Program-made: the position numbers and the translations under genes
Notes under the pieces: generated by a model
What the model saw: only the letters and a program-made list of their open reading frames with translations
Databases searched by the model: none
What the model was told of the DNA's origin: nothing
Shown: positions 17,929 through 34,931 of the stretch, in pieces
How positions within the stretch are numbered: position 1 is the stretch's first letter
Layout: each line of letters opens with the position of its first letter
Assembly (NCBI GenBank): GCA_945609985.1
Contig: CALYZQ010000009.1
Coordinates: forward strand, 1-43,679
Origin: an uncultured Lachnospiraceae bacterium
GTDB lineage: Bacteria; Bacillota; Clostridia; Lachnospirales; Lachnospiraceae
Direction: 5' to 3'
DNA length: 43,679 bases

Positions 17929-18145
17929 GAGGTGAGACAGGGTGTTTGTGTTCTTGGTGGAGGATGGTTGCATTTTCAAGCATCGTGCTTTATAAACCAG
18001 GGAAAATCGCTCATGGATGAGCGATTTAGGCACGCCGGTGCATGGACGCATCCTGCGCGCCGTCCCGGAAGATATAAATGTTTTGCCGCAATGCTTAGAA
18101 AATACCCATCCGGAAACAGAATCACCAAACACCCTGTCCCGCCTC
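17929..18145. repeat. Long palindromic element 2 (about 217 bp)
   Basis: The ends match as inverted copies in 18 of 20 positions (GAGGTGAGACAGGGTGTTTG at 17929-17948 and its partner at 18126-18145). Inner parts continue to pair with gaps: GGATGG, then TTTC-AAGCAT, then TTTATA. The centre has a perfect hairpin AAATCGCTCAT/ATGAGCGATTT (18004-18027). Its interior differs from elements 1 and 3, sharing only GCACGCCGG with element 1. No coding sequence is seen in the 408-base gap between glgP and tadA apart from this element and the two promoters. Confidence 0.7.
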
Positions 18146-18196: not shown

Positions 18197-18709
18197 ATGG
18201 CAGTTTTTACAAATATTCAGGAAAAATACATGAAGGAAGCCTTGAAGCAGGCAAAGAATGCATACGCCTTGGGCGAGGTGCCTATCGGATGTGTGATTGT
18301 GCATGAAGGAAAGATTATCGGTCGCGGCTACAACCGACGCAATACGGACAAGAATACGCTCTCTCATGCGGAGATTACCGCCATTCGCAAGGCCAGCAAA
18401 GTTATCGGCGACTGGCGTTTGGAGGAATGTACTCTCTATGTGACTCTGGAGCCCTGTCAGATGTGTGCAGGCGCCATTGTACAGGCCAGAATCCCTGAGG
18501 TGGTCATGGGCTGCATGAATCCCAAGGCAGGCTGCGCCGGTTCCATTTTAAACATATTAGAAATGCCCCAGTTTAACCATCAGGTGACGGTCAACCGGGG
18601 CATCTTGGAGGCAGAATGTTCTGAAATGCTAAAAACGTTCTTTGTGGAACTCAGAGAACGGAATAAACTGGAAAAGCTCGAAAAGCTAAAAGCTGATTCC
18701 TGTCAATAA
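18197..18709 (+). CDS. tadA: tRNA-specific adenosine deaminase
   Basis: 170 residues. It converts A34 to inosine in the wobble position of tRNA-Arg(ACG). The cytidine deaminase-fold zinc site is complete: His57 and catalytic Glu59 (HAE), and Cys87 and Cys90 (PCQMC). The length is standard, and an AAAGGAC SD precedes the ATG at 18197. The 3' end overlaps the convergent permease gene by 24 bases. It has a candidate promoter about 300 bases upstream with a long palindrome between. Confidence 0.96.
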   Translation: MAVFTNIQEKYMKEALKQAKNAYALGEVPIGCVIVHEGKIIGRGYNRRNTDKNTLSHAEITAIRKASKVIGDWRLEECTLYVTLEPCQMCAGAIVQARIPEVVMGCMNPKAGCAGSILNILEMPQFNHQVTVNRGILEAECSEMLKTFFVELRERNKLEKLEKLKADSCQ

Positions 18710-20671
18710 TATAAACAATATCATAATTCCCGAGCATACCGCAATGGTATTGATTCGGTTCTTGCAGAAGTTACTGATAGTCATCACTCCGCATCCCACC
18801 AGGAAGGTCAGAAACCCTCTGCCGATATACATAAACGTCAGGTATGTACCGATAGAAATATCCAGCAGAAAATGCCGCATGGAATTAATACTTTGCACTG
18901 CCGCATTCAAATTCATATATCCAAATACTTCCCCTATCTGCACAAATTGAATAATATGAATGGCTGTACTCATAACAAAAGCCATAATCGCAATAATCAG
19001 CACCTTATTCACAATCAGCTTCTTCCTGCCTTTATACAGGGTGTGAAGATACATCTTCATATGGGTGGTGCTCTCGTTTGCGATAATTCCCGAGAAAATA
19101 CCAATCATACCGATAAAGATGTACAGATGATTGCGTGTAGTGGTACTCTTGTCATGGTCAAGCAAGAGATAATAACTGTGTGTATCTATGATTTGAATGG
19201 TCTTACCTGTCCTCTTTGTGTATTCAAGACCATTTTCTACTTTTTCATACACGATATTAAGTCCCACCATCTCCTTCTCATGCTCTGCCAATTTCGCCTG
19301 CGTTTCTCCAATCTGCTTATCCACATACTGGGTAGTTCTGCCCTCCATGAGATATTTTTCTCTGGTTGCATAATATTTCTCCAAATTCTTTCTGCAGCCT
19401 TCCATCCACTTCAGAATTTTGTCGCGGGTAGCTGTAACCTCCTGCATCTTTGCCTCATTAATGTCCCCCCCAAAATCCTCGTACCAGTGCATCTCATAGG
19501 GATTTCTGGTATCCACATAGAAGGAATCCGTAGATGCGGAATAGGCCAGATAAAATACAATCAGACCAATCCAGATACCCTTTTGGGAAAGCAATACCTT
19601 TCTGCACTCCCAGAAGAAATTTGGCCATATGGACTTCTTTTTACTGAATGCTGCTATCAGCTTATCAATTTTTCTAAGGAAGGCAGGTGTCGACATGGGA
19701 TACCATTTGCGATTCTTAATAATAGTAACGACAGTAAATATCACAGCCAGCCCTACTACCAATACCGTGGCGGCAAGCCTGCTGTCCACAGCCTGTTCAA
19801 ACAAATTCAGATTATAATACCTTCCGTAATCCGTTCTGGCAAAAACATATGTGTACAGATTCATATACTTGAAAGCACACATTCTGTCCGTAGGCATAAT
19901 CAGTATGTACAGCAGATATTCCGCCACCAGCGTAAGTCCGAAAACAATAATGCTCAAGCTGGAAGAAATCAATGTTGTCAGCATATAAAAGAATACACAC
20001 AACAGAAATACGCCCACAAGCTTAGCAACAAGCTGTGTAAATAAATACTCCCCTATGGTAACTCTGCTCACATATTCCGAAAACTCCGAAATGGACTGTA
20101 TGGACCTGTCAAATCCCACATCTGCCTTTGACACCGTAATCATTAATAAGCTTCCGTACAACAAGGCATCGGACACCACCAGCCCCACAAACAAAATTAC
20201 CATTCTTTGCATCGCCAGTACAGCACGCCCTCTCGTGGTACTTCTCACCAGAAGATGCAGCCCCTTCTTGCGTTCCTGCAAAAAGCATAGAACAATGTAA
20301 ATTCCCGAAATCAGAAATAAAAAATCTACCAACGTAAATCGGAAAAAGCTCATAATCTCCTGATTATCGCCCTCGGTCAAGGTGATACCCTTCAACACCT
20401 CATAGTCCGCCTGTGTTTTTTTCAGATTTCTGTACACATAGGAATCCTCGTCCATAAATATGGATACCGAAAGCATGTCTGACGCATTCACAATCGTTTC
20501 ATCAATATGCTGATGATAGGTGTCTATATACTCCTTGTAGGTATCGCTCTCCATGGTGCTCGCCTTGTGTTCATTGTTCTGATACCCAAAGAACACAATA
20601 TTCACGCACATAAGCAATACCATTAGAAAAACTGTTTTTTTACTAATGAATATTCTCTTCGCTTCCCTCAT
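18686..20671 (-). CDS. ABC-2 type exporter permease, double unit
   Basis: 661 residues built as two similar halves, each with a first membrane helix, a soluble outer loop (about 30-105 and 370-490), and a group of about five helices. Each half has a short cytoplasmic motif after its second helix: RSTTRGR (143-149) in the first and a YKGRKK stretch in the second. The first half continues with VAEYLLY (249-255), NLYTY (271-275) and YYNLNLF (285-291), features of ABC-2 permeases common in Clostridia. It overlaps the ATPase gene by 29 bases and is the last gene of the lipoprotein operon. It should export, or extract from the membrane, an unknown substrate. The first half resembles the membrane part of the histidine kinase encoded at 28030-29859. 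Confidence 0.8.
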   Translation of the reverse strand: MREAKRIFISKKTVFLMVLLMCVNIVFFGYQNNEHKASTMESDTYKEYIDTYHQHIDETIVNASDMLSVSIFMDEDSYVYRNLKKTQADYEVLKGITLTEGDNQEIMSFFRFTLVDFLFLISGIYIVLCFLQERKKGLHLLVRSTTRGRAVLAMQRMVILFVGLVVSDALLYGSLLMITVSKADVGFDRSIQSISEFSEYVSRVTIGEYLFTQLVAKLVGVFLLCVFFYMLTTLISSSLSIIVFGLTLVAEYLLYILIMPTDRMCAFKYMNLYTYVFARTDYGRYYNLNLFEQAVDSRLAATVLVVGLAVIFTVVTIIKNRKWYPMSTPAFLRKIDKLIAAFSKKKSIWPNFFWECRKVLLSQKGIWIGLIVFYLAYSASTDSFYVDTRNPYEMHWYEDFGGDINEAKMQEVTATRDKILKWMEGCRKNLEKYYATREKYLMEGRTTQYVDKQIGETQAKLAEHEKEMVGLNIVYEKVENGLEYTKRTGKTIQIIDTHSYYLLLDHDKSTTTRNHLYIFIGMIGIFSGIIANESTTHMKMYLHTLYKGRKKLIVNKVLIIAIMAFVMSTAIHIIQFVQIGEVFGYMNLNAAVQSINSMRHFLLDISIGTYLTFMYIGRGFLTFLVGCGVMTISNFCKNRINTIAVCSGIMILFILLTGISF

Positions 20672-21440
20672 GCTTCTGCTCCCCGTATGCTTCCGAATGT
20701 TCTGTGTAGTACAGGTAAATATCCTCCAGTGTCATGTTGTCTGTTTCCACATCTCCCCTCCGGGCAAGCTCTCTCTTCACCTGCTCAATCAGCTGCTGCG
20801 GTGCTTCAAAGTGGCGCAGCTTACCCCGGCTTAAAAGCAATACCTTCTTTGCAATGCTCTCGATGTCTCCAAGCACATGAGTGGAAAGAATTACCGTACG
20901 ATTCTCACCCAACGACGCAATATAATTGCGCAACCGGATTCTCTCCGCGGGGTCAAGACCAGCAGTGGGTTCATCCAGGATGAGGATCTCAGGGTCATCC
21001 AGCATAGCTGCTGCCAGAAGCACTCTCTGCTTCATACCTCCCGAGAAGGAACCCAGCTTGTGATGAGCATCCTTGGACAGATTCACTACGCTCAAGAATT
21101 CTTCTGTCTGTTTTTTACAGCGGGCCGATTTCATCCCCTTTAAGGAACCGATGTAATGCAAAAAGTCCCTTGCCGTGAAATCATCATACATCCCCTGCAT
21201 CTGAGGCGTATACCCAATCTTTTTGCGATAGGCGCTGCCCATGGTGAGAATATCCTTGCCGTTATATAAAATACTTCCCTCTGTCCTTTTAATATTGTCT
21301 GTAATCAGATTCAGCATAGTGGATTTTCCTGCACCATTGGGACCCAGCAAACCGTAGATACCGGTTTCAAAGCTTGCATTCAGGTGATCCAGCGCCGTGA
21401 AATCACCATATTTTTTAGTCAGGTTTTTAAGTTCTAACAT
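20643..21440 (-). CDS. ABC transporter ATP-binding protein (ABC-2 exporter)
   Basis: 265 residues. Walker A GPNGAGKST (33-41), signature SGGMKQR (133-139), Walker B ILILDEPTAGLDP (152-164), and the switch His in STHVLGD. The YGLLGPNG and DIESIAKKVLLL blocks are typical of ATPases that drive ABC-2 exporters. The ATG follows directly on the TAA of the last lipoprotein gene (TAAATG), with no gap. It overlaps the permease gene, so all seven genes from 27927 to 18686 are almost certainly one transcript. Confidence 0.95.
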   Translation of the reverse strand: MLELKNLTKKYGDFTALDHLNASFETGIYGLLGPNGAGKSTMLNLITDNIKRTEGSILYNGKDILTMGSAYRKKIGYTPQMQGMYDDFTARDFLHYIGSLKGMKSARCKKQTEEFLSVVNLSKDAHHKLGSFSGGMKQRVLLAAAMLDDPEILILDEPTAGLDPAERIRLRNYIASLGENRTVILSTHVLGDIESIAKKVLLLSRGKLRHFEAPQQLIEQVKRELARRGDVETDNMTLEDIYLYYTEHSEAYGEQKHEGSEENIH

Positions 21441-22742
21441 TTATTCAAACTCCTTTACACTTGTAATGTGAATATCAATGGGATAGCACTCCTTAAAATT
21501 GGCATTTCCGGCTATAAAGTCTGCTTTACTGCACTCATACACCATAACAGAAGTTTGCATATAGACCATGTCATCTACAAAATGCAGGACGAAATACTCA
21601 TTATAACCTAAATATTTCTTTGGGCTGATTTTGACATCATTGACATAATTCCCTTCACCGTCCAGAATCGTTACTTCGACATAGTCAATTAATTTCTGTG
21701 TAGCATAACTTTCATGCTCGTAAATGTGGGTACTATAATCAAAATTAAAACCCTCCGGAACATACACGTATTCACCATCACAAAGCACATCACTCAAAGA
21801 ATAGCCAACTGACATTACACTCTTTGGACCATTTTCTGTTTCCAGAGTTTCCCAGAATCCCCGCCATGGCTCGGTATCGACCTGTGTGCTTTCTCCGGTA
21901 TCCCGTTTCCAAATATGTACTTCTCCCGCTCCCCTGATATAGTAAATGGTATTTTCATCATAGATAGCATAGTTTCCCTTGAAACCCTGTTTCAGCTCTA
22001 CTTTCTCCACAGAACCGTCTGCATAGCTGTATCGGTAAAGCTCCTTTTTATACTTCTGTGCCGAAACATAATACATATAGTCTCCATAACCACAGAATTT
22101 ACCGTTTTGTATTTTTAAATCCCCTTCCTTCTCTCCCAGATAAGTAACTTCACCTGTCTCCATATCATAGATAGCCGTTCCACTGATTCCAACCGACATG
22201 TTATCGGAATTCATAAGTACATACGGCAGAAATGCTTTGTTCCTATGTATGGTCATATTTTTAGTTATGATGGGACTCCTTCCCGGCATCAGACTTACAT
22301 TATCTATGGAGAAATAGGTTACCACCTCACTTAGGGAGGAACCATCCAAAGTTGCCTTCAAAAGCTTATATTCATAAGCAGTTTCTGTTTCTTCCACGAC
22401 ACTGATATACAGATTGCCGCTGTACATCGCTGTATCCATCACCTTATATTTATCCGATGTCGCTACACAAAACTCATCTCCCTCATGCCTGCACTCCGGC
22501 TTGTTACAAAGATACATATTTTTACCGTTTTTTACATCATAATAGTGCAGACTTAATTCATTAAAAGCACTCTGATTATAGTAAAAGCCTTTCTCTGTTT
22601 TCATGATGGGATTCATCAGGTAGCTTCTGCTATTCGCCTTAACAAAGTCCTCCGACACAAGCTTCTCTTCCCCACAGCCTGTAAAACATAAGCTCAGGCA
22701 AAGCAGAATACCTGCCATCCATCGTTTACTCAACCCTCTCAC
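21441..22742 (-). CDS. Paralogous lipoprotein 5 with C-x4-C-x-H-x5-C motif
   Basis: 433 residues, the fifth and last of the tandem set. GTG start with AAAGGAGG upstream; the start codon overlaps the preceding stop (GTGA). A lipoprotein signal ends in FTGC (Cys23). The conserved signature has Cys79, Cys84, His86 and Cys92 (LCNKPECRHEGDEFC). The rest is a run of beta-strand pairs with repeated YY or MYY, D-G-S and D-x-x-T-G turns, best read as a six- to seven-bladed beta-propeller on the outer face of the membrane. No catalytic motif is seen. Function unknown. Confidence 0.8.
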   Translation of the reverse strand: MRGLSKRWMAGILLCLSLCFTGCGEEKLVSEDFVKANSRSYLMNPIMKTEKGFYYNQSAFNELSLHYYDVKNGKNMYLCNKPECRHEGDEFCVATSDKYKVMDTAMYSGNLYISVVEETETAYEYKLLKATLDGSSLSEVVTYFSIDNVSLMPGRSPIITKNMTIHRNKAFLPYVLMNSDNMSVGISGTAIYDMETGEVTYLGEKEGDLKIQNGKFCGYGDYMYYVSAQKYKKELYRYSYADGSVEKVELKQGFKGNYAIYDENTIYYIRGAGEVHIWKRDTGESTQVDTEPWRGFWETLETENGPKSVMSVGYSLSDVLCDGEYVYVPEGFNFDYSTHIYEHESYATQKLIDYVEVTILDGEGNYVNDVKISPKKYLGYNEYFVLHFVDDMVYMQTSVMVYECSKADFIAGNANFKECYPIDIHITSVKEFE

Positions 22743-24058
22743 TGCTCCTCCTTTACACTGTGAATACCAATATCCAGAGGATACACTTCTTTGAAGCTGG
22801 CATTACCCGCAATAAAATCTTCTTTGCTACACTCATACACCATAAACGGTGTCTGCATATACACTGCATCCTCCAAAATATGAAGAGTAAAGCATTCGCT
22901 ATATCCCAGTAAATCCTCTGAGCTCACCTCCACATGATTTACATAATTGCCATCACAATCCAGCATGGTGACCTCAATATAATTTTTCTTTTCAGGCCCC
23001 TCATCATCGAAATGTGTAGGATCATACCCCTCAAACCGGGGAGCATTAAAGCCATTATTACTAAAGCCTTCCGGAATATACACATATTCACCGTCACTTA
23101 GAATACTATACAAATTCGTAAAATCCAGTACGATTGGCTGCATTCCTTCCGTAGTCATTATCTCAAAATTATATCCATTCCACTCCTTGGTATTAATACG
23201 CGTATTTTCCTTAGTTTCATGGTTATACTTAAAGAGCTCCTTTTGCGCCCTTATATAAAAAATTGTGTTCTCATCATAAAGGGCATACTCTCCTTTAAAG
23301 TTATTCTCTAAGTCCATCATCTCCACGGAGCCATCCGCATAGCTGTAACGGTATAGCTTGGTTTTAAATTTCTGGGCCGTAGCGAAATACATATAATCTC
23401 CACACCCCATAAAATTGAGGTCCTGTTCCTTAAGTCCTCTGTCCTTCTCTCCCAGATAAGTAAGCTCCCCTGTCGCCAAATCATAGATTGCCGTTCCGTT
23501 CATTCCAATCTCTGAATTGTTCCGGTTTCTCAGCTCGTAGGGAAGAAATACCTTATTGCGGTGAATTGTCAAAACCGGATACATCTTCCAATTACAAAAA
23601 GGCATTACATCCACACTATCCGCTTCAAAATAAGTCACAACCTCGCTTAAACTGCTTCCGTCCAAGGACGCTTTCAGTAACTTGTATTTGTAGGCGGTTT
23701 CCGTCTCTTCCACCGCCGCCACATACAAACTGCCACTGTACATTACAGTCTCCATTGCATAATATTTATCAGAAGTTGCCGCACAAAATTCATCCCCCTC
23801 ATGACGACATTCCGGCTTATTACACAAATACATGCTCTTACCATTTGCAGAATCATAATAATAGAGGCTCAGCTTCTCCATACCACCCTGACTATAATAA
23901 AATCCCTTGTCCGTCTTCATAATGGAATTCACTTCTATATTCCTGCTGTTTCCTCTTTGGAAGTCCTCCGACACAAGTTCTTCTTCCCCACAGCCTGTAA
24001 AACACATGGTTAGGCAAAGCAGAATAACTGCTATCACCCGTCTTCTTATTCCCTTCAC
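22739..24058 (-). CDS. Paralogous lipoprotein 4 with C-x4-C-x-H-x5-C motif
   Basis: 439 residues. GTG start overlapping the upstream TGA by four bases, with AAGGAG before it. Lipobox FTGC (Cys23), then the signature Cys79, Cys84, His86, Cys92. Its C-terminal half differs most in the loop around 300-345 (a PRFEGYDPTHFDDEGPEK stretch), the region where the five paralogs diverge. The conserved end VYECSKEDFIAGNASFKE is shared with the other copies. Predicted outer-surface beta-propeller of unknown ligand. Confidence 0.8.
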   Translation of the reverse strand: MKGIRRRVIAVILLCLTMCFTGCGEEELVSEDFQRGNSRNIEVNSIMKTDKGFYYSQGGMEKLSLYYYDSANGKSMYLCNKPECRHEGDEFCAATSDKYYAMETVMYSGSLYVAAVEETETAYKYKLLKASLDGSSLSEVVTYFEADSVDVMPFCNWKMYPVLTIHRNKVFLPYELRNRNNSEIGMNGTAIYDLATGELTYLGEKDRGLKEQDLNFMGCGDYMYFATAQKFKTKLYRYSYADGSVEMMDLENNFKGEYALYDENTIFYIRAQKELFKYNHETKENTRINTKEWNGYNFEIMTTEGMQPIVLDFTNLYSILSDGEYVYIPEGFSNNGFNAPRFEGYDPTHFDDEGPEKKNYIEVTMLDCDGNYVNHVEVSSEDLLGYSECFTLHILEDAVYMQTPFMVYECSKEDFIAGNASFKEVYPLDIGIHSVKEEQ

Positions 24059-25374
24059 TGCGCCTTCTCCTTCCTGCTGACAATATCAATATCCAGAGGA
24101 TATGCCTCCTTAAAGTTAGCATTTCCTGCTATGAAGTCTGCCTTGCTACATTCGTACACCATAACCGAGGTCTGCATATAAACCGCATCCTCCGTAAAAT
24201 GCAGGGTAAAGTATTCGTTATAGCCCAGAAGGTCCTTGGAGCTTACTCTGACCTCGTTTACATAATTGCCCTCGCTGTCCAAAATAGTTACTTCGATGTA
24301 GTCTTTCGTAATCTCCACACGTTCACCGGTTGCCTCAGAATCATAGTAAATGATGTACAAGGGATACGAATAACTGTCAAGAGAAAAATTCTCCGGAATA
24401 TACACATACTCACCATCGCTCAATATACTTTCAATGCGTGCATGTGTGTGCATCGCAATTCCCCCACCCTTTTCTTCCGGAATCTCAAGCATATATCCGT
24501 TCCATTCATCCGTTTTTACGGCTATATTTTCCTTTGTATCAAGCTTACGTATGAATAAATCTCCCTGACCTCTCACGTAAAAAATGGTATTGTCGTCATA
24601 GATAGCATATTTTCCCTTGAAGTTTCTTTCCAGTGCCACCTTCTCCACAGAACCGTCAGTGTAGCAGTAGCGGTAAAGCTCCGTTTTGTACTTCTGAGAA
24701 GTAACAAAATACATATATTCACCACAACCCATAAAATTGTTATCCCATCCTGCAAAAGCTTTATCTCCCAGATAGGTTACCTCACCCGTATCCATGTCAT
24801 AGATTGCCGTTCCGCAAATTCCAACTTCACTATTCACATCGTTGGTAAGTCTGTATGGTAAAAATGCCTTATTACGATGGATTGCCATCGCTCTGGACAT
24901 GTCACCATAAAGAATAGGATGAATGTCCACATTGTCAATCTCAAAATACGTCACTACTTCACTTAATGACGCTCCATCCAAGGATGCTCTAAGCAGCTTA
25001 TATACATAGGATGTCTCTGTCTCCTCTAATACATTGATATATATACTATCACCATACATAACAGCTCCCATGGTTCTATATTTATCAGATGTAGCTGCAC
25101 AAAATTCATTTCCATCATGACGACATTCCGGCTTATTGCAGAGAAACATATTTTTACCATTTTTCGAGTCATAATAATGTAGGCTTAATTCCTTAAAGGC
25201 ACCTTGACCGTAGTAAAAACCCTTATCTGTTTTCATAATGGGATTGACAAAAAAATTCCCGTAATTACCCCGCTCAAAATCCTCCGAGATAATTTTCTCC
25301 TCCCCGCAGCCCGCACATGAAAGGAGCAATGTTGCCGCAATAATACCAAATATGGCTCTCCCTAATCCTCTCAC
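24055..25374 (-). CDS. Paralogous lipoprotein 3 with C-x4-C-x-H-x5-C motif
   Basis: 439 residues. GTG start just after the upstream TAG (four bases between the two genes). Its signal peptide (IIAATLLLSCAGC) is almost identical to that of copy 2, which suggests a recent duplication or gene conversion. Signature Cys79, Cys84, His86, Cys92. Copies 3 and 5 share the same end VYECSKADFIAGNANFKE. Predicted lipid-anchored beta-propeller; ligand unknown. Confidence 0.8.
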   Translation of the reverse strand: MRGLGRAIFGIIAATLLLSCAGCGEEKIISEDFERGNYGNFFVNPIMKTDKGFYYGQGAFKELSLHYYDSKNGKNMFLCNKPECRHDGNEFCAATSDKYRTMGAVMYGDSIYINVLEETETSYVYKLLRASLDGASLSEVVTYFEIDNVDIHPILYGDMSRAMAIHRNKAFLPYRLTNDVNSEVGICGTAIYDMDTGEVTYLGDKAFAGWDNNFMGCGEYMYFVTSQKYKTELYRYCYTDGSVEKVALERNFKGKYAIYDDNTIFYVRGQGDLFIRKLDTKENIAVKTDEWNGYMLEIPEEKGGGIAMHTHARIESILSDGEYVYIPENFSLDSYSYPLYIIYYDSEATGERVEITKDYIEVTILDSEGNYVNEVRVSSKDLLGYNEYFTLHFTEDAVYMQTSVMVYECSKADFIAGNANFKEAYPLDIDIVSRKEKAQ

Positions 25375-25378
25375 TACT

Positions 25379-26638
25379 CTACCCCCCTATACTTAGCAAC
25401 CGGATGTCAATAGGATATACCTCTTTGAACTCAGGCTCCCCTGCCACAAAGTCCTCTCTGGTACATTCGTACATCATCTTTGGTGTCTGCATATAAATGG
25501 TTTCTCCGCAGAAATGCAGAAGAAAGCACTCGCGATAACCCAGCACATCCTTGGGGCTAAACCGAATTTCATTTACCAGGTTTCCTTCTCCATCCAAGAT
25601 ACTAATCTCCATAAAATCCAGATCACTTCCGTCTTCCATGCCTCCTATCCAAACAGAAGTAGTGGAAAAGCTTTTCAGAAATCCATTTTCTCCAATATAC
25701 AGGTATTTACCGTCACTAACCAAATCGCAAAATCCGCTTCGGGACGAACTGTTTTCTCCCGTCCTTATACCGTACCATTCCTCAACACTAACACTCGTAT
25801 TTTCTCCTGTTTTGGGATTATGAATGAACAGTTCAGAATTACCTCTCATAAAATAAATGGTATCGTCATCATAGATTGCATAATCACCTGTAAAATTGCG
25901 TTCCAACAAAAGCTCTTCCACGCTTCCGTCCGCATAGCTGTACCTGCACAGCCTCTTCTTATACTTTTCAGCGGTAACGAAATACATATAATCTCCATAA
26001 CCGCAAAAATTCGTTTTCTCCACCTTCAAGTCGCCTTCTTTATCGCCCAGATAGGTGACCTCTCCTGTCTCTAAGTCATAGATTGCCACTCCGTTATATC
26101 CAATCTGCTGATTATTGACATTTTTTACGACATACGGCAAAAATGCTTTATTCCTGTGAATTATCATGGGATTTGTATCCGGATTTATTTCTACCTTATT
26201 GACAGTCAGATAGGTTACCACTTCCTCCAACGAGCTTCCATCCAAGGATGCCCGGAGTAATTTGTACTCATAGGCACTATCTGTAGGCTCTATCACATTG
26301 ATATAAAGGCAGTTACTATAAAGGATAGTATCGAATACCATGTATTTTTCGGAAGTTGCCACGCAGAATTCATCACCCTCATGTCTGCACTCCGGCTTAT
26401 TGCACAGATACATGTTTTTGCCGTTTGCCGCGTCATAATAATGCAAGCTTAGCCAGCCATAGTCTCCTTGACTGTAATAGAACCCTGTATCTGTCTTCAT
26501 GACAGCATTTGCATACTTATGATGGCTGTTCCCCCTCTGATACTCCTCTGATATCAGCTTCTGCTCGCCACAGCCCGCACATGAAAGAAGTAATGTTGCC
26601 GCAATAATACCTGCAACGGCTCTCCCCTGTCTTCTCAT
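25379..26638 (-). CDS. Paralogous lipoprotein 2 with C-x4-C-x-H-x5-C motif
   Basis: 419 residues from the ATG at 26638, which overlaps the upstream TGA (ATGA) and has GGGAGG upstream. A longer frame from 26668 exists, but the ATG at 26638 puts the lipid Cys at 23 and the signature at Cys79/84/His86/Cys92, exactly as in copies 3-5, which supports it. Lipobox CAGC. The loop near 290-330 is shorter than in copies 3-5. The end reads MMYECTREDFVAGEPEFKE, shared in type with copy 1, so copies 1 and 2 form one subgroup and 3-5 another. Confidence 0.8.
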   Translation of the reverse strand: MRRQGRAVAGIIAATLLLSCAGCGEQKLISEEYQRGNSHHKYANAVMKTDTGFYYSQGDYGWLSLHYYDAANGKNMYLCNKPECRHEGDEFCVATSEKYMVFDTILYSNCLYINVIEPTDSAYEYKLLRASLDGSSLEEVVTYLTVNKVEINPDTNPMIIHRNKAFLPYVVKNVNNQQIGYNGVAIYDLETGEVTYLGDKEGDLKVEKTNFCGYGDYMYFVTAEKYKKRLCRYSYADGSVEELLLERNFTGDYAIYDDDTIYFMRGNSELFIHNPKTGENTSVSVEEWYGIRTGENSSSRSGFCDLVSDGKYLYIGENGFLKSFSTTSVWIGGMEDGSDLDFMEISILDGEGNLVNEIRFSPKDVLGYRECFLLHFCGETIYMQTPKMMYECTREDFVAGEPEFKEVYPIDIRLLSIGG

Positions 26639-27927
26639 TCTTCTACCTCCCTCATACTCGGCATCCAAATATCAATAGGATATACCTCCTCAAACTCGGG
26701 ATTTCCAGCCACAAAATCCTCCCTGGTACACTGATACATCATTTTCGGTGTCTGCATATAAATGATGTCTCCGCAGAAATGAAAACTGAAATAGTCACTA
26801 TATCCCAAGATTTCTTCCGTATTAAAGGCAAAAGAATTTACATGCTCGCCTTCCTTATCCAGCACATTAATCTCTACATATTTCAAACGCCCCTCTTCAT
26901 CGGGAATCCCGCCTATCCTAAACGGAATGGGAGAAAAACTGCTTATGGCTTTGTTCTCTGAAAGATAAAGATATTTGCCGTCACTTATCATATCCATAAT
27001 GCCCGTATCCGTCCAGCCCTTTCCTTCCCCAAGAGAAATTCCGTACCATCCCTGTCCTTTTATATCAATACTACGGTTTTCTTTTGTTTTCGGATTATAA
27101 ATATAAAGTTCTGCATTTCCTCTTTCGTAAAAAATTGCCTCTTCATCATAGATAGTGTATTTTCCCTTAAAATTACGTTCCAAAGGAAGCTCTTCCACAC
27201 TTCCGTCCGCATAGCTGTATCTGCACAGTCTCTTCTTATATTTTTCCGCATTGACATAATACATATAATCTCCGTAACCATAAAAGCTGTGCTGTGTGAT
27301 ATTTATATCTCCCTCTTTTTCACCCAAATAGGAAAGTTCCCCTGTTTCCAAATCATAGATTGCCGTGCCATTAAATCCCACCTGGTCATTATCCGAATTT
27401 CCCGCACTGTACCCGAGAAAAGCCTTATTTCTGTGAATGACCAAATCTTTAGTACTCACACCAATTCCCACATTGTTAATGCTGAGATACGTCACTACTT
27501 CACTCAAAGAGCTTCCATCCAAGGCTGCTTTCAAAAGCTTAAATTCATAGGAAGTCTCTGTCTCCTCTATCACATTGATATACAGTGCATTGCTGTAAAG
27601 CGTTGTTCCGGCTACGCTGTACTTATCAGAGGTCGCCGCACAAAATTCGTTTCCGTCATGCCTACACTCAGGTTTATTGCAAAGATACATGCTCTTAGCA
27701 TTTTTTTCATCATAATAATGTAAACTTAATCCTCTGAATCCGTTCTGACTATAATAATATCCCGTGTCTGTCTTCATCACGCCATTAGCTAACCCGTGCT
27801 GACTGTTTCCTATCTGATAGTCCTGTGAGATAATTTTCTCTTCCCCGCAGCCGGCAAGCCCCATCATCATGCACACTGCCAGCAATATCCCCCATATTTT
27901 CTTTGTTCTTCTTATTGTACCTTTCAC
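26635..27927 (-). CDS. Paralogous lipoprotein 1 with C-x4-C-x-H-x5-C motif (first gene of operon)
   Basis: 430 residues from the GTG at 27927, chosen because GAGGAGG lies nine bases upstream and because the other copies begin VKG or VRG in the same way. The ATG at 27948 is in frame but has no SD. Lipobox LAGC (Cys27); signature Cys82, Cys87, His89, Cys95. It is the first gene after the candidate LytTR-controlled promoter. Like the rest, it has a propeller-like series of strands and an MMYQCTREDFVAGNPEFEE end. Function unknown; position makes it the best-expressed member. Confidence 0.8.
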   Translation of the reverse strand: MKGTIRRTKKIWGILLAVCMMMGLAGCGEEKIISQDYQIGNSQHGLANGVMKTDTGYYYSQNGFRGLSLHYYDEKNAKSMYLCNKPECRHDGNEFCAATSDKYSVAGTTLYSNALYINVIEETETSYEFKLLKAALDGSSLSEVVTYLSINNVGIGVSTKDLVIHRNKAFLGYSAGNSDNDQVGFNGTAIYDLETGELSYLGEKEGDINITQHSFYGYGDYMYYVNAEKYKKRLCRYSYADGSVEELPLERNFKGKYTIYDEEAIFYERGNAELYIYNPKTKENRSIDIKGQGWYGISLGEGKGWTDTGIMDMISDGKYLYLSENKAISSFSPIPFRIGGIPDEEGRLKYVEINVLDKEGEHVNSFAFNTEEILGYSDYFSFHFCGDIIYMQTPKMMYQCTREDFVAGNPEFEEVYPIDIWMPSMREVEE

Positions 27928-27959: not shown

Positions 27960-27988
27960 ATTATAATAATGCCAAAAATAAAAAACAA
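27960..27988 (-). promoter_or_regulatory. Promoter of the lipoprotein/ABC operon
   Basis: On the minus strand TTGTTT (27988-27983), a 17-base spacer, and TATAAT (27965-27960). The -35 is weak and lies in the T-run of the preceding terminator, so an activator is probably needed. The candidate activator repeat is just upstream. Confidence 0.65.
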
Positions 27989-28015
27989 CCGCTCCGGAAG
28001 AAGTGGTTGTTTTTT
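27981..28015 (-). terminator. Terminator after the histidine kinase gene
   Basis: The minus strand reads AACAACC, a partly paired CT/AG step, and GGTTGTTTTTT around an eight-base loop. It separates the regulator operon from the lipoprotein operon. The A-rich left side would also let it work on the plus strand. Confidence 0.8.
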
Positions 28016-28028
28016 ATGCAGAAGTGGT
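27999..28028 (-). promoter_or_regulatory. Direct repeat, candidate LytTR response-regulator site
   Basis: ACCACTTCT occurs twice on the minus strand (28028-28020 and 28007-27999), separated by 12 bases, so the period is 21 bp, two helical turns. Paired 9-bp direct repeats of this spacing just upstream of a weak -35 are the usual target of LytTR activators such as AgrA, ComE and BlpR. One copy overlaps the terminator stem. Binding by the regulator at 29856-30560 is inference. Confidence 0.55.
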
Positions 28029-28029
28029 A

Positions 28030-29859
28030 CTATATGTCATTTATTAGGATTTCTACTCGGAATATGTTGTTGTCCGTACTAATCTGCATGTTACCCATAT
28101 ACTTTTTACAAAGTCTCTGAATGGATGCAAGTCCGATTCCGTGATACTTTTCATCCGTCTTTGTAGTAATAAATTTACCGTCCGCCTCCCTGCGCTCCCC
28201 CTGATAGGGATTCTCACAGGCAATGTAAAGCATGTCATTTTTGTTTTGAATGGACAGACGAATTGTTCTTTGCTCTTCCGGCAAATCCCGCAGTGCCTCC
28301 AATCCATTGTCCAAAAGATTGCCCAGGATACCGCACAAATCGAATTCCGGAATTTTGGTGTTTTTCAGAGAACATCCCACTGTGTATTCTATGGGAACTC
28401 TCTGTTCCTTTGCCTGTCCTGTCTTTTTAAACAGGAACATATCCACAACCTTGGAACCTGTCTTGACCGGCATCATACTATCCCGCAGACGCTCCGTCAG
28501 TTCTCTGATATATTTGTCCGTGCCCTCTCTGTCGCCGCATTCATTCAGGGCTTTGATTGCCATCAGATGATTATGGAAATCATGGAACAGCCTGCGGCTT
28601 TCCTGATAGCGCAGATCTATTTCACTGTAAAAATCCTGCATCATTTTATTCTGCGCATTTTTCTCCAACCCCTTTAAGCGGAATCTCACCACAACAAAGG
28701 AGCCAATCAAAAGTGATCCAAAAATCAATAAAAACACATTCATTCTATCCACTGCATTATTAGCAATGTTGAGATTCAGATACCTGTTAAAAAATCTATC
28801 AAAGGTAAGTGCCGAAAAAATATTGATTTCACGGAACAGCACCAAAATAGGATTCTCTCCGCTGTAACGGCTTGCCACAAATTCTGCCAGCACAAACAAA
28901 CCTGCCGCACTGCATAACAGCTTGTTTTTCTCTTTGGATATGCAACAAATAATAATGTAAAACAAAAGTATCCAGAAAAGAAGCTTCATCAACAGCCATA
29001 TAATGATAAATGCTCCGATAGTCACAAGATAATGGCAATACACAAAGCTATCCAAGGCCTGCAACGGAAGGGTCAGCTTAGGCAGCTTCAGAAAATAGGA
29101 TGCCAGACCCAGATTTACTACGTAGATACAAAAAACACCTGCTGCCAGCAGCATGCTACAGCCTACGATAATCCCTTTTCCCTTTGTGGTGGAACCAAAC
29201 TCATAATTTTTATAAAGGGAGTAAAATAAGATGCTGACACACACTACCATTACCAGCGCGATAATGTCCGACACATGGTCGTGCAACACCTCATTCAGAC
29301 CGTAATCCAATAAAAGCGGCGGTGCAATAATCTCCAATCCGTAATAGTCACGCTTACACTTGGCAATGTTATTTATCACCCATTTATCTCCTGTCAGCGC
29401 ACCGATACCCTCAGACAAAACATCCGTACCGGTCTCCAGATTTTCTATATACTCCGAGTAAGTCAGGGCATATATAATCCGCTCACGGATACTGCCGTAA
29501 TGCGATATGTCATCCTTGTTTATCTGAAATTTGGCAGTCAAATCCTCGTAGGCCTCAGCCTTTGCCTGTTCTTCTTCCGAAACCTTACGCTTGGTCTTTT
29601 TGGGCTCAAAGCTTAATACATTGATTACATGGTCTACATGCGCAAGGGCCTCTTCCAGATTCTCCGGAAGAGATTTAATCAATTGCTGCTGTCTCCTCAA
29701 ATCCGAAAGCTTAATGGAATGTGTAACACCCCACACATCCACGCTCTGCACATACTCCGCTTCACAGTTTGTGGTGTAAAACAGTGCACCGCTCAAAGGA
29801 AGTAACAGGAAAAACAATATGAAAATAACTGACAAAATCAGGCTTTTTCTTTTGTTCAT
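28030..29859 (-). CDS. GHKL sensor histidine kinase with ABC-2 permease-like membrane domain
   Basis: 609 residues. Membrane helix at 5-28, an outer domain of about 160 residues (30-190), then about six helices to 392, a linker, and a GHKL kinase. The phospho-acceptor is His426 (RRLFHDFHNHL), the N box is GNLLDN (513-518), and the G box GIGL is near 574; this is the AgrC/LytTR-partner type. The membrane part is unusual. It contains STTKGK (223-228), LAEF (324-327), INIFS (345-349) and YLNLN (360-364), in the same order and nearly the same spacing as STTRGR, VAEY, NLYTY and YYNLNLF of the permease at 18686. I read it as a sensor derived from an ABC-2 exporter unit. It overlaps the response regulator gene by four bases (ATGA). 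Confidence 0.85.
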   Translation of the reverse strand: MNKRKSLILSVIFILFFLLLPLSGALFYTTNCEAEYVQSVDVWGVTHSIKLSDLRRQQQLIKSLPENLEEALAHVDHVINVLSFEPKKTKRKVSEEEQAKAEAYEDLTAKFQINKDDISHYGSIRERIIYALTYSEYIENLETGTDVLSEGIGALTGDKWVINNIAKCKRDYYGLEIIAPPLLLDYGLNEVLHDHVSDIIALVMVVCVSILFYSLYKNYEFGSTTKGKGIIVGCSMLLAAGVFCIYVVNLGLASYFLKLPKLTLPLQALDSFVYCHYLVTIGAFIIIWLLMKLLFWILLFYIIICCISKEKNKLLCSAAGLFVLAEFVASRYSGENPILVLFREINIFSALTFDRFFNRYLNLNIANNAVDRMNVFLLIFGSLLIGSFVVVRFRLKGLEKNAQNKMMQDFYSEIDLRYQESRRLFHDFHNHLMAIKALNECGDREGTDKYIRELTERLRDSMMPVKTGSKVVDMFLFKKTGQAKEQRVPIEYTVGCSLKNTKIPEFDLCGILGNLLDNGLEALRDLPEEQRTIRLSIQNKNDMLYIACENPYQGERREADGKFITTKTDEKYHGIGLASIQRLCKKYMGNMQISTDNNIFRVEILINDI

Positions 29860-30560
29860 AGCTTAGAAAGTCTGCTCATAATGGCAGACATAACATCCTT
29901 TCTGTTTCTGCGGCTTACAGGCAAAGACCTGTCGTCATCCAAAATCACTGTATCCTTCTCCACTCTGCGGATGTGGTCCACATTGACAAACAATGCATGA
30001 TATGCCTCCACAAAGAGCCACTTTGGCAGCTTGTCCGCAAAATGCTGTATGGATTCTGCATCCGTGTATTCAGCGCTTCCCGTAACAATTTTGGTATTGC
30101 GGTTATCGGCTTCCACCCAGTAAATATTTTTTATGGGAATAACCTGCATCCCGCCCTTATCTTTTATTGTTACATTGTTACTGTCATAGCACTCCGTCAG
30201 AAAACGCTCCAATACTCTCGGAAGCTTCTCCATAAAATTTCTCTTGTAGATAAAGGAAAAAGCATTCACATCATAGCCGTCAAGCGCCCGGTTTTCCATG
30301 CTGGTGATAAAGACCACCGGCAGGTTGGGGTACTTGCTTCTGACCGTATGTATTACATCCACGCCGTCCATATCTCCCAGCTGGATATCCATAAAAAGAA
30401 GGTCCGGCTGAAGGTTACCGTCCATAACCTCCAGCAAATCCTTACCGCAGGAGTAAAAATTGATTTTGCACTCCCGCTCCTTTTCTTCCATAAAAGTTTT
30501 TACCGCTGCTCCCAGCGTACCTGCGAAAGCACTTTCGTCCTCGCATATTCCGATTAACAT
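29856..30560 (-). CDS. LytTR-family response regulator
   Basis: 234 residues. Receiver domain with Asp58 (LLFMDIQ) as phosphate acceptor, acidic pair in ICEDE, Thr/Ser in FITSMEN, and a C-terminal LytTR DNA-binding domain (130-234; IYWVEADNRNT, FVEAYHALFVNVDHIRRVE, LPVSRRNRKDV). The ATG at 30560 has GGAGAAG upstream; a longer frame to 30641 lacks an SD and overlaps the previous gene. It is paired with the GHKL kinase. The direct repeat at 27999-28028 is its most likely target. Confidence 0.93.
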   Translation of the reverse strand: MLIGICEDESAFAGTLGAAVKTFMEEKERECKINFYSCGKDLLEVMDGNLQPDLLFMDIQLGDMDGVDVIHTVRSKYPNLPVVFITSMENRALDGYDVNAFSFIYKRNFMEKLPRVLERFLTECYDSNNVTIKDKGGMQVIPIKNIYWVEADNRNTKIVTGSAEYTDAESIQHFADKLPKWLFVEAYHALFVNVDHIRRVEKDTVILDDDRSLPVSRRNRKDVMSAIMSRLSKL

Positions 30561-30573
30561 AGTATCTTCTCCG

Positions 30574-31074
30574 TTATTCTCCGATGTAGGTAGGTGCATT
30601 CTTGGGGCTCTTACCCTTGATGACATTATGATAGTAAGCATAGGTCATCGGTGTATCTGCTTTCAAAACATCAGCATCCGTCACCTTGCCCAGGAATACT
30701 GTATGTGTGGAGGTCTCCATCTTATCAATCACCTCACACACCACATAAGCACAGGCATCCGCTATCACAGGCAAATAACCCTTTAATACCTGCTCCACAC
30801 CATCAAACTTATTACAGTCCCTGCCGCTTCTGAAACCGAAGCCGCCGATGATGGAAGGGTCCGTTTTCTCTCCCAGAATAGAGATGGCAAACTTGCCATT
30901 CTCCTGAATACACTGATTGGTGTAGTTGTCATGATTGATACTTACGGCAATGGTAGCAGGCTCGGAAGTAATCTGCATGGCACTGTTTGCCGTACAGCCT
31001 GTAGGTCTGCCATTATCCCAGGTGCTCACCACATATACACCGTAGGAAAGTTGATGAAATGCACTTTTATTCAT
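30574..31074 (-). CDS. Flavin reductase-like FMN-binding protein
   Basis: 166 residues, a split-barrel FMN-binding fold of the flavin reductase family (YGVYVVSTWDNGRPTGCTANS, then FAISILGEKTD and GRDCNKFDG). It resembles the flavoprotein part of high-molecular-weight rubredoxins but has no rubredoxin tail. Proteins of this type pass electrons to flavin, rubredoxin or oxygen in anaerobes. It lies 13 bases before the response regulator and two bases after the YczE-like gene, in one transcript, which may tie the two-component system to redox conditions. That link is speculation. Confidence 0.85.
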   Translation of the reverse strand: MNKSAFHQLSYGVYVVSTWDNGRPTGCTANSAMQITSEPATIAVSINHDNYTNQCIQENGKFAISILGEKTDPSIIGGFGFRSGRDCNKFDGVEQVLKGYLPVIADACAYVVCEVIDKMETSTHTVFLGKVTDADVLKADTPMTYAYYHNVIKGKSPKNAPTYIGE

Positions 31075-31713: not shown

Positions 31714-33336
31714 TTAATTATCTCCACCGATTACTTTATCGTACAAATCCAGTCCGAAGCTGGTAAGCTCCGGCTCTCCTTCAATCATTTTGTAGGTTCT
31801 GGTACCGTCTTCCATTCTCTCCGCACACAAAAATGCCGCATCAGCTCTCTGCTCCCCGTATACTCTCTTGGCAAAGGACAGAAGATGGGTTACCGTAAAC
31901 ACCTTTACTCCCACTTCTCCCAGAGCCTTAATAATGTCATAGGAGATGACAGAGCCCTCTTCCTCCGTGGTCGTAGCAAAGGATTCATTTAACAGCACCA
32001 AAGAATCCTTACCCAGATTGTTTACAATCCTATTAATTCTGCCAAGCTCCTCATCCAGTCGTCCGCTGTTCATGGCAGTATCCTCTCGTCTTACAAAATG
32101 AGTAAAGAAATTAGGGAAAAGACTGCTCTCATAGTGCTTTGCTGCAACGAACAAACCACTCTGCATCATAATCTGTGCAACACCGATACTTCTTAGGAAG
32201 GTGGATTTACCGCCCTGATTTGCACCGGTAACAATTAAAAGCATTTTATCCGCTATGTCACCGTCATTACCCACCGGTGCCTTTCTGTTGCAAAGACCCA
32301 TGGAAAGCTCCATCAGATTTTCGAATCTCATGCGCTCCTTTGTGCAGACTGTGGGATAACAGGTATTCACCTTAATCTGCTGGCATCTGATATACAGGTT
32401 ACTACAGCCTGCATAAAAGGCACTCTGTACCAATAATGCCTCAAAGAAGTCACGGCAATTTCTGGAAAATCCCTGGAGATAGCTGAAAATATAAATTGCA
32501 ATTTCATTTTCCAGCTCTGACAATTCCCGTGCGGAGTCTTCATCCTTCGCAATAATCATCGGTTCAGAAGAAAAGGTTACGGACAGCTTTTCAAAAACGT
32601 TCAGTGTAGACTTTCTCTTTTGCATCAGCTTTTCCTGGGTACTTACGGAATCCAGCTTTAAATCAGAGAACTTAAAACCTGTCCCAACAGCACCTTCCAG
32701 TACAATATTGGATCTCGGAATTCTCTTTAAGAACCGGATATCCTCCTCTGACTCCTCATCATCACAAAAGAAACGCAGGTCATCCAATACTTTCCGTATC
32801 TTCTTCTCCCATTCGTCAGAGTATTCCGTTTCCAACCGCTCGCAAAAACTTCTAAGCCCTCTTGAATTAAAATCCGGCTTATACCTTCTGCTTAACAGCT
32901 TTATCTCTGTAAGTGATTTCAAAAAGATATGTAACAGCTTAATCTCGGAAATCAGCTGTCTTTGGTTATCCATAAAATTTCCCTTTTCACGCTCATCTTT
33001 GCCGTGCTTTTTCCAAGCTGCAATCAATCTCCTCGCAGCGGCATACAGCTTCTCCGTATAATCAGGATTTGACAGAAAATCCTTGAGCACAGCCTGTCTG
33101 TATTTTAATTCTTCCTCCGTACGCAGAGGTGTCATCATCACCTTGCGCATAGCCTTGTGAATTTCATTGTCAATATCAATGGTCTGCCTCACAGCTCTGT
33201 TTCGTGCCTGCTGATTGATTGCAGCGTTTTCAAACAAATGGTTCAATCCTAAATCGTTTACAATGCTCTCTGTATCATGATAAGGCTTGCCCCCGCCGAG
33301 TTCACTGTTTTCATATAATAAATTAACGCTTAACAT
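31714..33336 (-). CDS. MutS-like ATPase, copy B
   Basis: 540 residues. The C-terminal part is a MutS domain V ATPase: Walker A GANQGGKST (371-379), a Walker B region SLVLLNESFATT in which Asn-Glu replaces the usual Asp-Glu, and a His in TVTHLLSFA. The N-terminal 350 residues are helical like the MutS core and clamp but lack the mismatch-recognition domain with its Phe-x-Glu motif. So it is not a canonical mismatch-repair MutS. Its start overlaps the stop of copy A by seven bases (ATGTTAA). A heterodimer of the two copies is likely. Confidence 0.8.
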   Translation of the reverse strand: MLSVNLLYENSELGGGKPYHDTESIVNDLGLNHLFENAAINQQARNRAVRQTIDIDNEIHKAMRKVMMTPLRTEEELKYRQAVLKDFLSNPDYTEKLYAAARRLIAAWKKHGKDEREKGNFMDNQRQLISEIKLLHIFLKSLTEIKLLSRRYKPDFNSRGLRSFCERLETEYSDEWEKKIRKVLDDLRFFCDDEESEEDIRFLKRIPRSNIVLEGAVGTGFKFSDLKLDSVSTQEKLMQKRKSTLNVFEKLSVTFSSEPMIIAKDEDSARELSELENEIAIYIFSYLQGFSRNCRDFFEALLVQSAFYAGCSNLYIRCQQIKVNTCYPTVCTKERMRFENLMELSMGLCNRKAPVGNDGDIADKMLLIVTGANQGGKSTFLRSIGVAQIMMQSGLFVAAKHYESSLFPNFFTHFVRREDTAMNSGRLDEELGRINRIVNNLGKDSLVLLNESFATTTEEEGSVISYDIIKALGEVGVKVFTVTHLLSFAKRVYGEQRADAAFLCAERMEDGTRTYKMIEGEPELTSFGLDLYDKVIGGDN

Positions 33337-34898
33337 GATGCATTACCCCCTTCCATCCAAGCCGGATTCTTAAGTCTCTCATGCAGGTCATCGTAAGACA
33401 ACTGATATTTGTTTACAATGTCCTCCGCATAACCGTCCAGCTCTGCCGCATTGCGAATGACACGGTAGGTACGTCTGTGGGCTGCCGTTCCATCAAGCAT
33501 GGCTGCCAGTCTCACTACTCCTTCGCAGGCATTCCCAAGCTCTCTTAGATGAGTAACATATACTCCCTTACATTCACTCCCCGTAAAATGCTCCAGCACT
33601 CTGGCACCCATAATACAACCATCGTAATGAGCAGCCGTAGTAAACAGCTCATTGATGATTACAAAAGCATTCCTGCAATTCTGCTTCATAATGGGTGACA
33701 GACGGTTTAACTCCTCCATCAGCTTGCCCTGACCGCTCTCCATACTCTCCTCCACAGAGAAATGGGTGAGCAAATCCGTAAAATAATGAACATTCGCAGT
33801 AACTGCATTTACATCCAGACCCATTTTTGTAAAATACACCAGCTGACCCACACTTCTGGCAAAGGTGGTTTTACCGCCCTGATTGGGACCGTTTACCACA
33901 AAAAACTGCTCTCCCTCTGCGTAAGTAAAATCATTGCTTACTACCTCTTTGTCCTGCAGGTAGTTTACACAGGCAAGAGCAAGGTCATAAACACCGCATG
34001 CCTCCATGGGCTTTTCCTCTTCGCAGGTAGGACTTGCAAATACAAAGCCCTGTCTTATGCACTTCGCTTGAAAACGATAATATGACAAATAGAACTGCAC
34101 CTCTTCCTCCAAGCGAAGCAGCTCTTCCTTTTTATAATTTGTATAGCCTGCCGCAAAGGAAACAATCTCCTTTAAGAGCATTGGATATTTTCCAAAGTAT
34201 GCCATCAGAAGAGCTTTTTCCATGTTTCCTAAAATCTGACTTCCTAAATATGGCGAATGCATGTGATCATTTTTAGCAACATTGTACTGACCAAAATTAT
34301 CTTTCAGGAAGTCTTCGTATTTTTTCTGTGTGACACCCTCTTTTATCACAAGACGATTGCCCTGGATGATGAGTGTATAGCGGAATGATTTTATTTTATC
34401 CCAGATAGTATATACACCCTCCTGCATTTTTGCGTAAGCTTCCTCTTTCTGTAGGGCGTCCAAATACTCATACAGATTTCTAAGACCTTCCGAACAAATT
34501 GTATTCTGCGACAGCGCATTACCTAATACCTCATAAAGTTCTCTGACTGCCATGCAATAATAATAGATTGCTTCAGTCCGCCACATACAGCCCTGTATCT
34601 CATTGTCTTTTGCCACATGCATCCGCTCCATGTGATTGGAATGACGCATGTTCTCAGAAAACTTTTGCTGACTTTCAAAAATCTCCGGCTGCTTGATGTC
34701 CCGATAAATCTCTCTGCGGTAGTTCATACTTTCCCTGTCAGGAAATTGATAGTACATCGGTGCTATGTTGTAGTCCATTGACTCCTCCTGAATCAGCTTC
34801 AGAATCTGGTCAATGTTTAAATCCAGGAAATAGGCAGGTGCCCTGTCAGGCCACTTATCCTGCACCTTTTCCGGTTCCAAAATACTGATAAAATTCAT
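33330..34898 (-). CDS. MutS-like ATPase, copy A
   Basis: 522 residues from the ATG at 34898 (GGGAGGG upstream; a longer frame to 34931 has no SD). Walker A GPNQGGKTT (337-345), Walker B AFVIINELFTT, and THLRELG. Like copy B it has Asn-Glu in the Walker B site and lacks a mismatch-recognition domain. The helical N-terminal part differs from copy B. It heads a six-gene operon that ends with the two-component system. Related paired MutS-domain proteins of unknown function exist in Lachnospiraceae; their role could be in DNA or RNA remodelling. Confidence 0.8.
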   Translation of the reverse strand: MNFISILEPEKVQDKWPDRAPAYFLDLNIDQILKLIQEESMDYNIAPMYYQFPDRESMNYRREIYRDIKQPEIFESQQKFSENMRHSNHMERMHVAKDNEIQGCMWRTEAIYYYCMAVRELYEVLGNALSQNTICSEGLRNLYEYLDALQKEEAYAKMQEGVYTIWDKIKSFRYTLIIQGNRLVIKEGVTQKKYEDFLKDNFGQYNVAKNDHMHSPYLGSQILGNMEKALLMAYFGKYPMLLKEIVSFAAGYTNYKKEELLRLEEEVQFYLSYYRFQAKCIRQGFVFASPTCEEEKPMEACGVYDLALACVNYLQDKEVVSNDFTYAEGEQFFVVNGPNQGGKTTFARSVGQLVYFTKMGLDVNAVTANVHYFTDLLTHFSVEESMESGQGKLMEELNRLSPIMKQNCRNAFVIINELFTTAAHYDGCIMGARVLEHFTGSECKGVYVTHLRELGNACEGVVRLAAMLDGTAAHRRTYRVIRNAAELDGYAEDIVNKYQLSYDDLHERLKNPAWMEGGNASC

Positions 34899-34931
34899 GG
34901 TGTAACCCTCCCTTTTTGCCCTCTGCACCAT

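Follow-up and report, generated by a model that had tools for sequence, protein, structure and literature searches.

A lipoprotein array and ABC exporter in Lachnospiraceae beside a histidine kinase whose sensor region resembles half of the exporter permease

Why should a single ATP-binding cassette (ABC) exporter be encoded behind five diverging lipoproteins, and what would switch such a set of genes on? The question is raised by 43,679 nucleotides from an uncultured Lachnospiraceae bacterium (GCA_945609985.1, contig CALYZQ010000009.1, positions 1-43,679, forward strand), the whole of which is called the window here. An initial annotation had described five homologous lipoproteins of 419-439 residues followed by an ABC ATPase and a permease, and all seven genes are indeed found on the minus strand at the place it gave. 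It had also taken the lipoproteins for receptors, adaptors or immunity-like proteins serving one exporter. This reading is supported in part. The link to the pump stands, but the annotation overlooked the LytTR response regulator and GHKL histidine kinase encoded directly upstream of the array on the same strand, a sensor in the kinase that is related to half of the permease, and a conserved direct repeat. The last two are the features that make the locus unusual.

The kinase (28030..29859, minus strand, 609 amino acids) matches GHKL/HATPase families of Pfam (HATPase_c_5, E = 7.3e-27) and, weakly, SPOB_a. Its His426 is invariant among the kinases. Sequence profiles show homology between its membrane and extracellular sensor, at about residues 129-390, and the N-terminal half of the permease encoded in the adjacent operon (18686..20671, minus strand, 661 amino acids). 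The comparison drew on 22 loci, among them the window, in which such a kinase is present at full length; three duplicate loci were excluded. The profile of the 22 kinase sensors aligned with that of 19 permease N-halves with an hhalign probability of 99.9 and an E-value of 6.2e-34 over 257 columns, at 19% identity. Reversed profiles gave E-values of 0.01-0.04, 20 column shuffles gave 0.27-0.86, and four single sequences, from unrelated membrane proteins encoded in the window, gave 0.27-0.68; these controls rule out chance or composition as the source of the match. The window's kinase and permease match even as single sequences (E = 6e-7). In the genome to which the window belongs (2.48 Mb in 133 contigs, 84% complete), the two proteins find each other: searches give E = 1e-21 for the permease with the sensor profile and E = 4e-17 for the kinase with the permease profile. 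A weak sensor match in the same genome, at G000:C54, falls inside the frame of an M23 peptidase; a chance resemblance between coiled coils is the probable cause. A database search with the single sensor sequence returned 13 GHKL kinases, its own included, and one 797-residue protein at E = 2e-4. The latter matches the permease profile at E = 7e-83 but not the kinase-domain profile.

The two halves of the permease are homologous to each other (hhalign E = 2e-12), and the protein appears, by remote homology, to be of ABC-2 type. Its C-terminal half matches a relative, L146 (E = 2.5e-14), which is itself recognized as ABC2_membrane_2 at 3.7e-8; the N-terminal half matches L146 at E = 1e-5. When the kinase sensor is compared directly with general ABC-2-like half proteins, the link is weak or absent (E = 0.02 for L146, 0.015 for L143 and 1.5e-4 over 54 columns for L144). 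As far as these profiles indicate, the sensor's link to ABC-2 proteins runs through the permease of the cassette. The permease has no credible Pfam match, including none to the LolC/LolE/FtsX families. When solved structures were searched with the profiles of permease and sensor, the hits, mostly coiled coils, did not rise above chance level. In locus L165 (genome G382), neighbouring genes beside an ATPase encode the permease as a separate N-half (415 amino acids) and C-half (355 amino acids), so the kinase-type half exists elsewhere as a free subunit.

In the predicted structure of the kinase (predicted local distance difference test score, pLDDT, 80.5), the counterpart of the permease half is modelled as six helices; the initial annotation had given the whole permease 12. 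After one helix come about 160 residues outside the membrane; four more helices and a re-entrant stretch follow, and the sixth helix leads into the kinase, a plan which we take to agree with that of an ABC-2 half. A fold search with the whole model, whose matches are dominated by the kinase domain, places this domain nearest to AgrC, a peptide receptor kinase.

Is this sensor a general companion of such pumps? The sensor profile found matches in 37 of 250 genomes of the family Lachnospiraceae (threshold E = 1e-5) and, in a second sample, in 17 of 341 genomes of the class (threshold E = 1e-10), the window's own genome being in both. The regions read were eight from the class sample and twenty from the family sample, the latter including three whose genomes had no listed sensor match; the remaining genomes were judged by the length of the frame. 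These regions contain 20 family and nine class proteins recognized by the sensor profile; the permease profile recognizes every one of the 29, and the kinase domain is absent from them all. Where kinases do occur near those pumps, as in five of the family regions and three of the class regions, the sensor profile finds no match in them. Ordinary kinases stand near related pumps of other genera in regions L128-L131, L133, L183, L184 and L187; since the permease-type sensor profile does not match them, the pump family seems to have swapped regulators.

The second unusual feature lies between the kinase and the array. A motif of the form ACC[AG]CTTNT (TCC in one case) is present twice, with an exact 21-base step, in 21 of the 22 kinase-bearing loci, at or after the kinase stop codon and before the first lipoprotein gene. 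In the window it reads ACCACTTCT, the two copies being 21 bases apart (27999..28028, minus strand). The first repeat is inside the end of the kinase gene in L043 and 278 bases on in L072, and the one locus without the pair is L071. A stricter pattern has a single match in the 2.48-Mb genome, and its reversed control has none. A hairpin shares sequence with the second repeat in 20 of the 21 loci, and 18 of the 21 have a -10-like hexamer at 32 or 33 bases beyond that repeat. Because related loci are not independent, these counts and that of the repeat itself overstate the evidence. Elements of both kinds occupy 27960..28010 of the window (minus strand), where a hairpin with a T-run (fold of -11.4 kcal/mol) overlaps the second repeat and TATAAT follows 33 bases past the repeat. 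The hairpin and T-run are a probable terminator of the kinase transcript. Because they and the promoter-like site separate the kinase gene from that of lipoprotein 1, the array is probably its own transcription unit.

Binding sites of LytTR regulators commonly consist of two direct repeats with a spacing of about 21-22 bases, and the 21-base direct repeat is a candidate operator to which the LytTR regulator of the locus would bind. The longest open reading frame (ORF) of this regulator spans 29856..30641 on the minus strand (Pfam Response_reg, 2.5e-14; LytTR, 6.9e-14), and several relatives of 234 amino acids suggest a start further in. Among 25 further loci that have no permease-type kinase, the repeat is seen in one only, L125, with a 20-base step. 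It is also present before an orphan lipoprotein operon (L045), a lipoprotein gene at a contig end (L074) and a regulator gene (L038).

The array, on the minus strand throughout, starts with lipoprotein 1 (26635..27927, 430 amino acids), whose GTG start is preceded by GGAGGGCGG. It continues with lipoprotein 2 (25379..26638, 419 amino acids, ATG start), lipoprotein 3 (24055..25374, 439 amino acids), lipoprotein 4 (22739..24058, 439 amino acids) and lipoprotein 5 (21441..22742, 433 amino acids), the starts having been corrected by picking them from the translations. The lipoprotein genes are joined by 4-base overlaps and one 4-base gap, lipoprotein 5 meets the ATPase gene at a TAA/ATG junction, and the ATPase and permease genes overlap by 29 bases. 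All seven would be carried on one transcript. The ATPase (20643..21440, 265 amino acids; ABC_tran, 3.8e-31) has its motifs intact, with a GPNGAGKST Walker A, an SGGMKQR signature and DEPTAGLD.

What kind of proteins make up the array? Lipoproteins 2-5 are 52-61% identical to lipoprotein 1, and the five copies are the only matches to their family in the 2.48-Mb genome assembly. No Pfam or NCBIfam family fits any of them; at E up to 1 the five give just two Pfam matches, both at chance level and neither of them to DUF5050 (PF16472). An aligned lipobox-like cysteine is present in all five and kept in 92 of 93 relatives, and the cysteines and histidine of a CX4CXHX5C loop, at about residues 79-92, are invariant in 93 of 93. 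This loop, a possible metal site, is poorly predicted in the model. The one copy modelled, lipoprotein 4, is predicted to be a beta-propeller (pLDDT 87.9), and all five probably share this fold. BtuG, a surface binder of vitamin B12, is among the structural neighbours of the model, a likeness at the level of the fold only. A solved-structure sequence search with the lipoprotein profile gave nothing above chance level.

The repertoire of lipoproteins turns over fast while the frame of the cassette stays conserved. Between the window and L036, the regulator is 100% identical, the kinase 93%, the ATPase 96%, the permease 82% and the flanking genes 89-96%, and the best lipoprotein matches reach just 62-78%. 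L053 and L055 share a frame of 95-99% identity and three lipoproteins of 94-97%; the other four lipoproteins of L053 have matches of at most 55%. Within the family, variability peaks at residues 301-320 and 331-360, and residues 71-100 are nearly fixed. Many of the distant lipoproteins found in the 250 family genomes match only over the N-terminal third, which bears the Cys/His loop. A 623-residue protein at L073:3616-5487 matches the lipoprotein-family profile and has a different N-terminus and no Pfam match; it adjoins a methionyl-tRNA synthetase gene, and the window also has such a gene at 41018-42994.

How constant is the cassette in other genomes? The sampling, which also supplied the 22 kinase-bearing loci, combined a scan of named genomes (26 loci, chiefly from Lachnospiraceae and Oscillospiraceae assemblies, with a ruminant named in 14 of the 26 titles) and 101 genomes of the genus, 13 of which gave a match. 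The order regulator-kinase-lipoproteins-ATPase-permease is the rule among strong matches and recurs in both families. One to eight lipoproteins precede the ATPase, and one contig, covered by the overlapping loci L054 and L059, has nine, eight before and one after. The cross-genome comparison that the initial annotation had called for therefore gives 1-9 copies, with regulator, kinase, ATPase and permease as conserved partners in close relatives. There are exceptions. L042 has lipoprotein, ATPase and permease and no kinase, four of the five copies in L038 lie downstream of the permease, L044 and L045 (genome G018) hold orphan copies, L063 has no readable ATPase, the arrays of L043, L055 and L058 have gaps or fragments, and several loci end at contig edges. 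Weak lipoprotein matches (below 70 bits) have a permease nearby in L049, L050 and L075-L077, one on the other strand in L046, and none in L047 and L048.

For the 250 family genomes, scoring took in the top six candidates for the lipoprotein and the top four for the permease in each genome, and positions were compared by eye. Among these candidates, a lipoprotein match is present in 24 genomes and a permease match in 59 (E = 1e-5). Of the 24, 20 carry a lipoprotein no more than about 5 kb from a permease match, both being on one contig. In three of the remaining four (G107, G172, G194) the permease matches are on other contigs, and G236 has none. The pattern that the annotation had named as refuting its reading, paralogs that occur elsewhere unlinked to ABC-2 exporters or GHKL kinases, is therefore not what is seen, although the association with the kinase is narrower than that with the pump.

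How might the parts work together? The best functional reading of the lipoproteins is as putative substrate-specific adaptors or immunity-like proteins serving one exporter. We lean, tentatively and with a little less than even confidence, towards an inducible surface module for the clearing or detoxification of ligands, made of capture lipoproteins, a shared pump and a kinase that reads the same docking event. The membrane-anchored lipoproteins would capture different extracellular ligands, most likely peptides or other envelope-active compounds from competitors, and each copy would present the same invariant CX4CXHX5C loop to shared partners. The ATPase and the two-half ABC-2 permease would then clear the captured ligand from the membrane, by driving it off or out. 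The kinase, with a permease N-half as its sensor, would recognize the same lipoprotein/ligand event as the pump and phosphorylate the LytTR regulator, which would bind the direct repeat and turn on the lipoprotein-ATPase-permease operon. In the simplest picture, variable receptors would have one dock, the pump would use it and the kinase would have copied it. The AgrC-like kinase domain and the LytTR regulator suit peptide sensing; there is no room for a peptide gene between the array genes, and no biosynthetic cluster was found among the 30 ORFs of the window scanned with Pfam. The locus would then show a pump giving rise to its own sensor, and added copies of a surface protein could broaden what one switch detects. 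It is possible, though we rate it as doubtful, that the kinase dimer is a pump look-alike, with two permease halves and kinases replacing the ATPases, which competes with the exporter for loaded lipoproteins; the array would be an expandable receptor repertoire, any member of which fires the same switch. If true, this would be a distinct class of bacterial surface sensing, beyond variants of Bce or Lan.

Several observations weigh against the ligand-clearing module. The ratio of nonsynonymous to synonymous substitution rates is below 0.5 in every pair of lipoproteins computed, so that diversifying selection is not demonstrated. The permease-type kinase is missing from many related lipoprotein-ATPase-permease loci, which have an ordinary kinase nearby or none; the kinase is therefore not essential to the pump. 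Residues common to kinase and permease make up 22 of 145 columns outside the membrane against 10 of 133 (Fisher p = 0.06), a concentration so weak that a shared extracellular partner is not proven. For the kinase CbrA, the transporter domain is reported to be dispensable for perceiving the signal (PMC9100948), so a sensor that resembles a transporter does not have to take part in sensing. The last three points favour an explanation by shared ancestry only, in which a membrane anchor was taken from an ABC-2 half long ago and sensing has nothing to do with the pump. In a quick tree, the kinase sensors also stand apart from the cassette permeases and are not nested in the cassette's own permease group. 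However, the kinases form no single clean split from the permeases either, because the long-branched permease L137 falls among them. Moreover, extracellular stretches are retained in both proteins (Tyr134, the QS pair at 267-268, Asn346, Tyr360 and Asn362), the kinase stays linked to pump and lipoproteins, and the two trees show matching groups of loci by eye. We regard shared ancestry alone as quite unlikely.

Also weighing against the clearing module, the orphan lipoproteins of G018 (L044, L045) adjoin proteins of 754-781 residues with weak solute-binding matches below the Pfam cut-off, which hints at ligand uptake. The lipoproteins would then capture peptides, pheromones or glycans for signalling or nutrition, and the ABC unit would export or modulate something else. 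The repeat upstream of L045, the presence of BtuG among the structural neighbours, and related permease loci that contain a DUF5050 protein and a borderline HlyD-like match (L139) fit this proposal. It is nevertheless the least probable of the explanations weighed here: the solute-binding arrangement occurs in one genome only, the propeller match is at fold level, and the permease resembles ABC-2 exporters, not importers. Another explanation, which we think unlikely, is that the ABC complex extracts, releases or positions the lipoproteins themselves, in the manner of LolCDE, and that the kinase senses lipoproteins piling up in the membrane. Of the 20 loci that show an ATPase, 19 have a lipoprotein gene immediately before it, and copies also occur after the permease (L038, L059). 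The pairing is old: among eight permease regions read from the class outside the family, six contain a match to the lipoprotein profile. A permease-half kinase would naturally bind the same lipoproteins. However, the permease lacks any credible match to LolC/LolE/FtsX, cells of the Gram-positive type have no outer membrane to sort to, and a copy number and sequence that vary so fast are left unexplained.

How does the locus compare with known systems? In LanI/LanFEG systems, such as NisI with NisFEG, surface defence relies on a lipoprotein that binds the ligand, together with an ABC exporter and a two-component system (PMC4828448). The present locus is like them in combining lipoproteins, which would bind ligands, with an exporter and two-component regulation. 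Unlike them, it has 1-9 diverging lipoproteins, a kinase with a permease-half sensor, LytTR regulation and one 661-residue two-half permease where Lan systems have separate E and G permease genes. The window's ATPase scores 157 bits with the lantibiotic-protection model TIGR03740, below its cut-off of 310, and no lantibiotic genes were found among the 30 ORFs scanned with Pfam. In the BceAB-BceRS module, BceS has no dedicated sensing domain, contacts BceB and is proposed to sense its cycling, and this transporter-tied kinase switches on the transporter genes (PMC10314905). A kinase tied to a transporter is common to both; in contrast to BceS, the kinase described here has a large extracellular domain (about 160 residues between helices 1 and 2 of the model) and a permease-half sensor, and the permease, unlike its Bce counterpart, has no FtsX match in Pfam. 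Bce modules have, to our knowledge, no lipoprotein array.

Transporter folds fused to kinases are reported for the SLC5/STAC kinases CbrA, CrbS and RpuS and for the ammonium-transporter kinase KsAmt5; in the case of RpuS/R, an imperfect direct repeat mediates control of a symporter operon (PMC9100948, PMC13022988, PMC8534201). These kinases likewise have a sensor homologous to a transporter, but here the sensor corresponds to half of an ABC exporter permease and is homologous to the permease of the adjacent operon. Pfam finds no SLC5, STAC or PAS domain in the kinase. To the fusions known for SLC5 and ammonium carriers, the locus thus adds an ABC exporter half. As here, a GHKL kinase and a LytTR regulator adjoin an ABC exporter in NatKR-natAB, where it is of ABC-2 type; we know of no lipoprotein array or permease-like sensor associated with NatK. 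A literature search over titles and the starts of abstracts, with most subscription papers outside it, found no description of an ABC-exporter-half kinase or of such a lipoprotein array, and the combination of the two is absent from the passages at hand on Lan, Bce, SLC5/STAC and ammonium-transporter systems. The locus offers a clear operator candidate and a protein family with an invariant Cys/His loop.

A role in anti-phage defence was also considered: lipoprotein 4, the permease and the kinase have no padloc match, and the matches of the ATPase to defence-ATPase models (best mad3, 2e-31) are read as generic ATPase similarity.

Other features of the window lie outside the cassette. A TwoAYGGAY RNA motif (17955-18118, plus strand; 75 bits against a gathering threshold of 43) is upstream of an ORF at 18197-18709, named deaminase-like from its sequence. 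At the contig edge, 24-628 on the minus strand, a Group II intron D1-D4 match accompanies a reverse-transcriptase fragment. At 31714-34931 (minus strand), a tandem pair of proteins has MutS domain V, with the other MutS domains absent by Pfam, and adjoins a 216-residue protein that belongs to no family.

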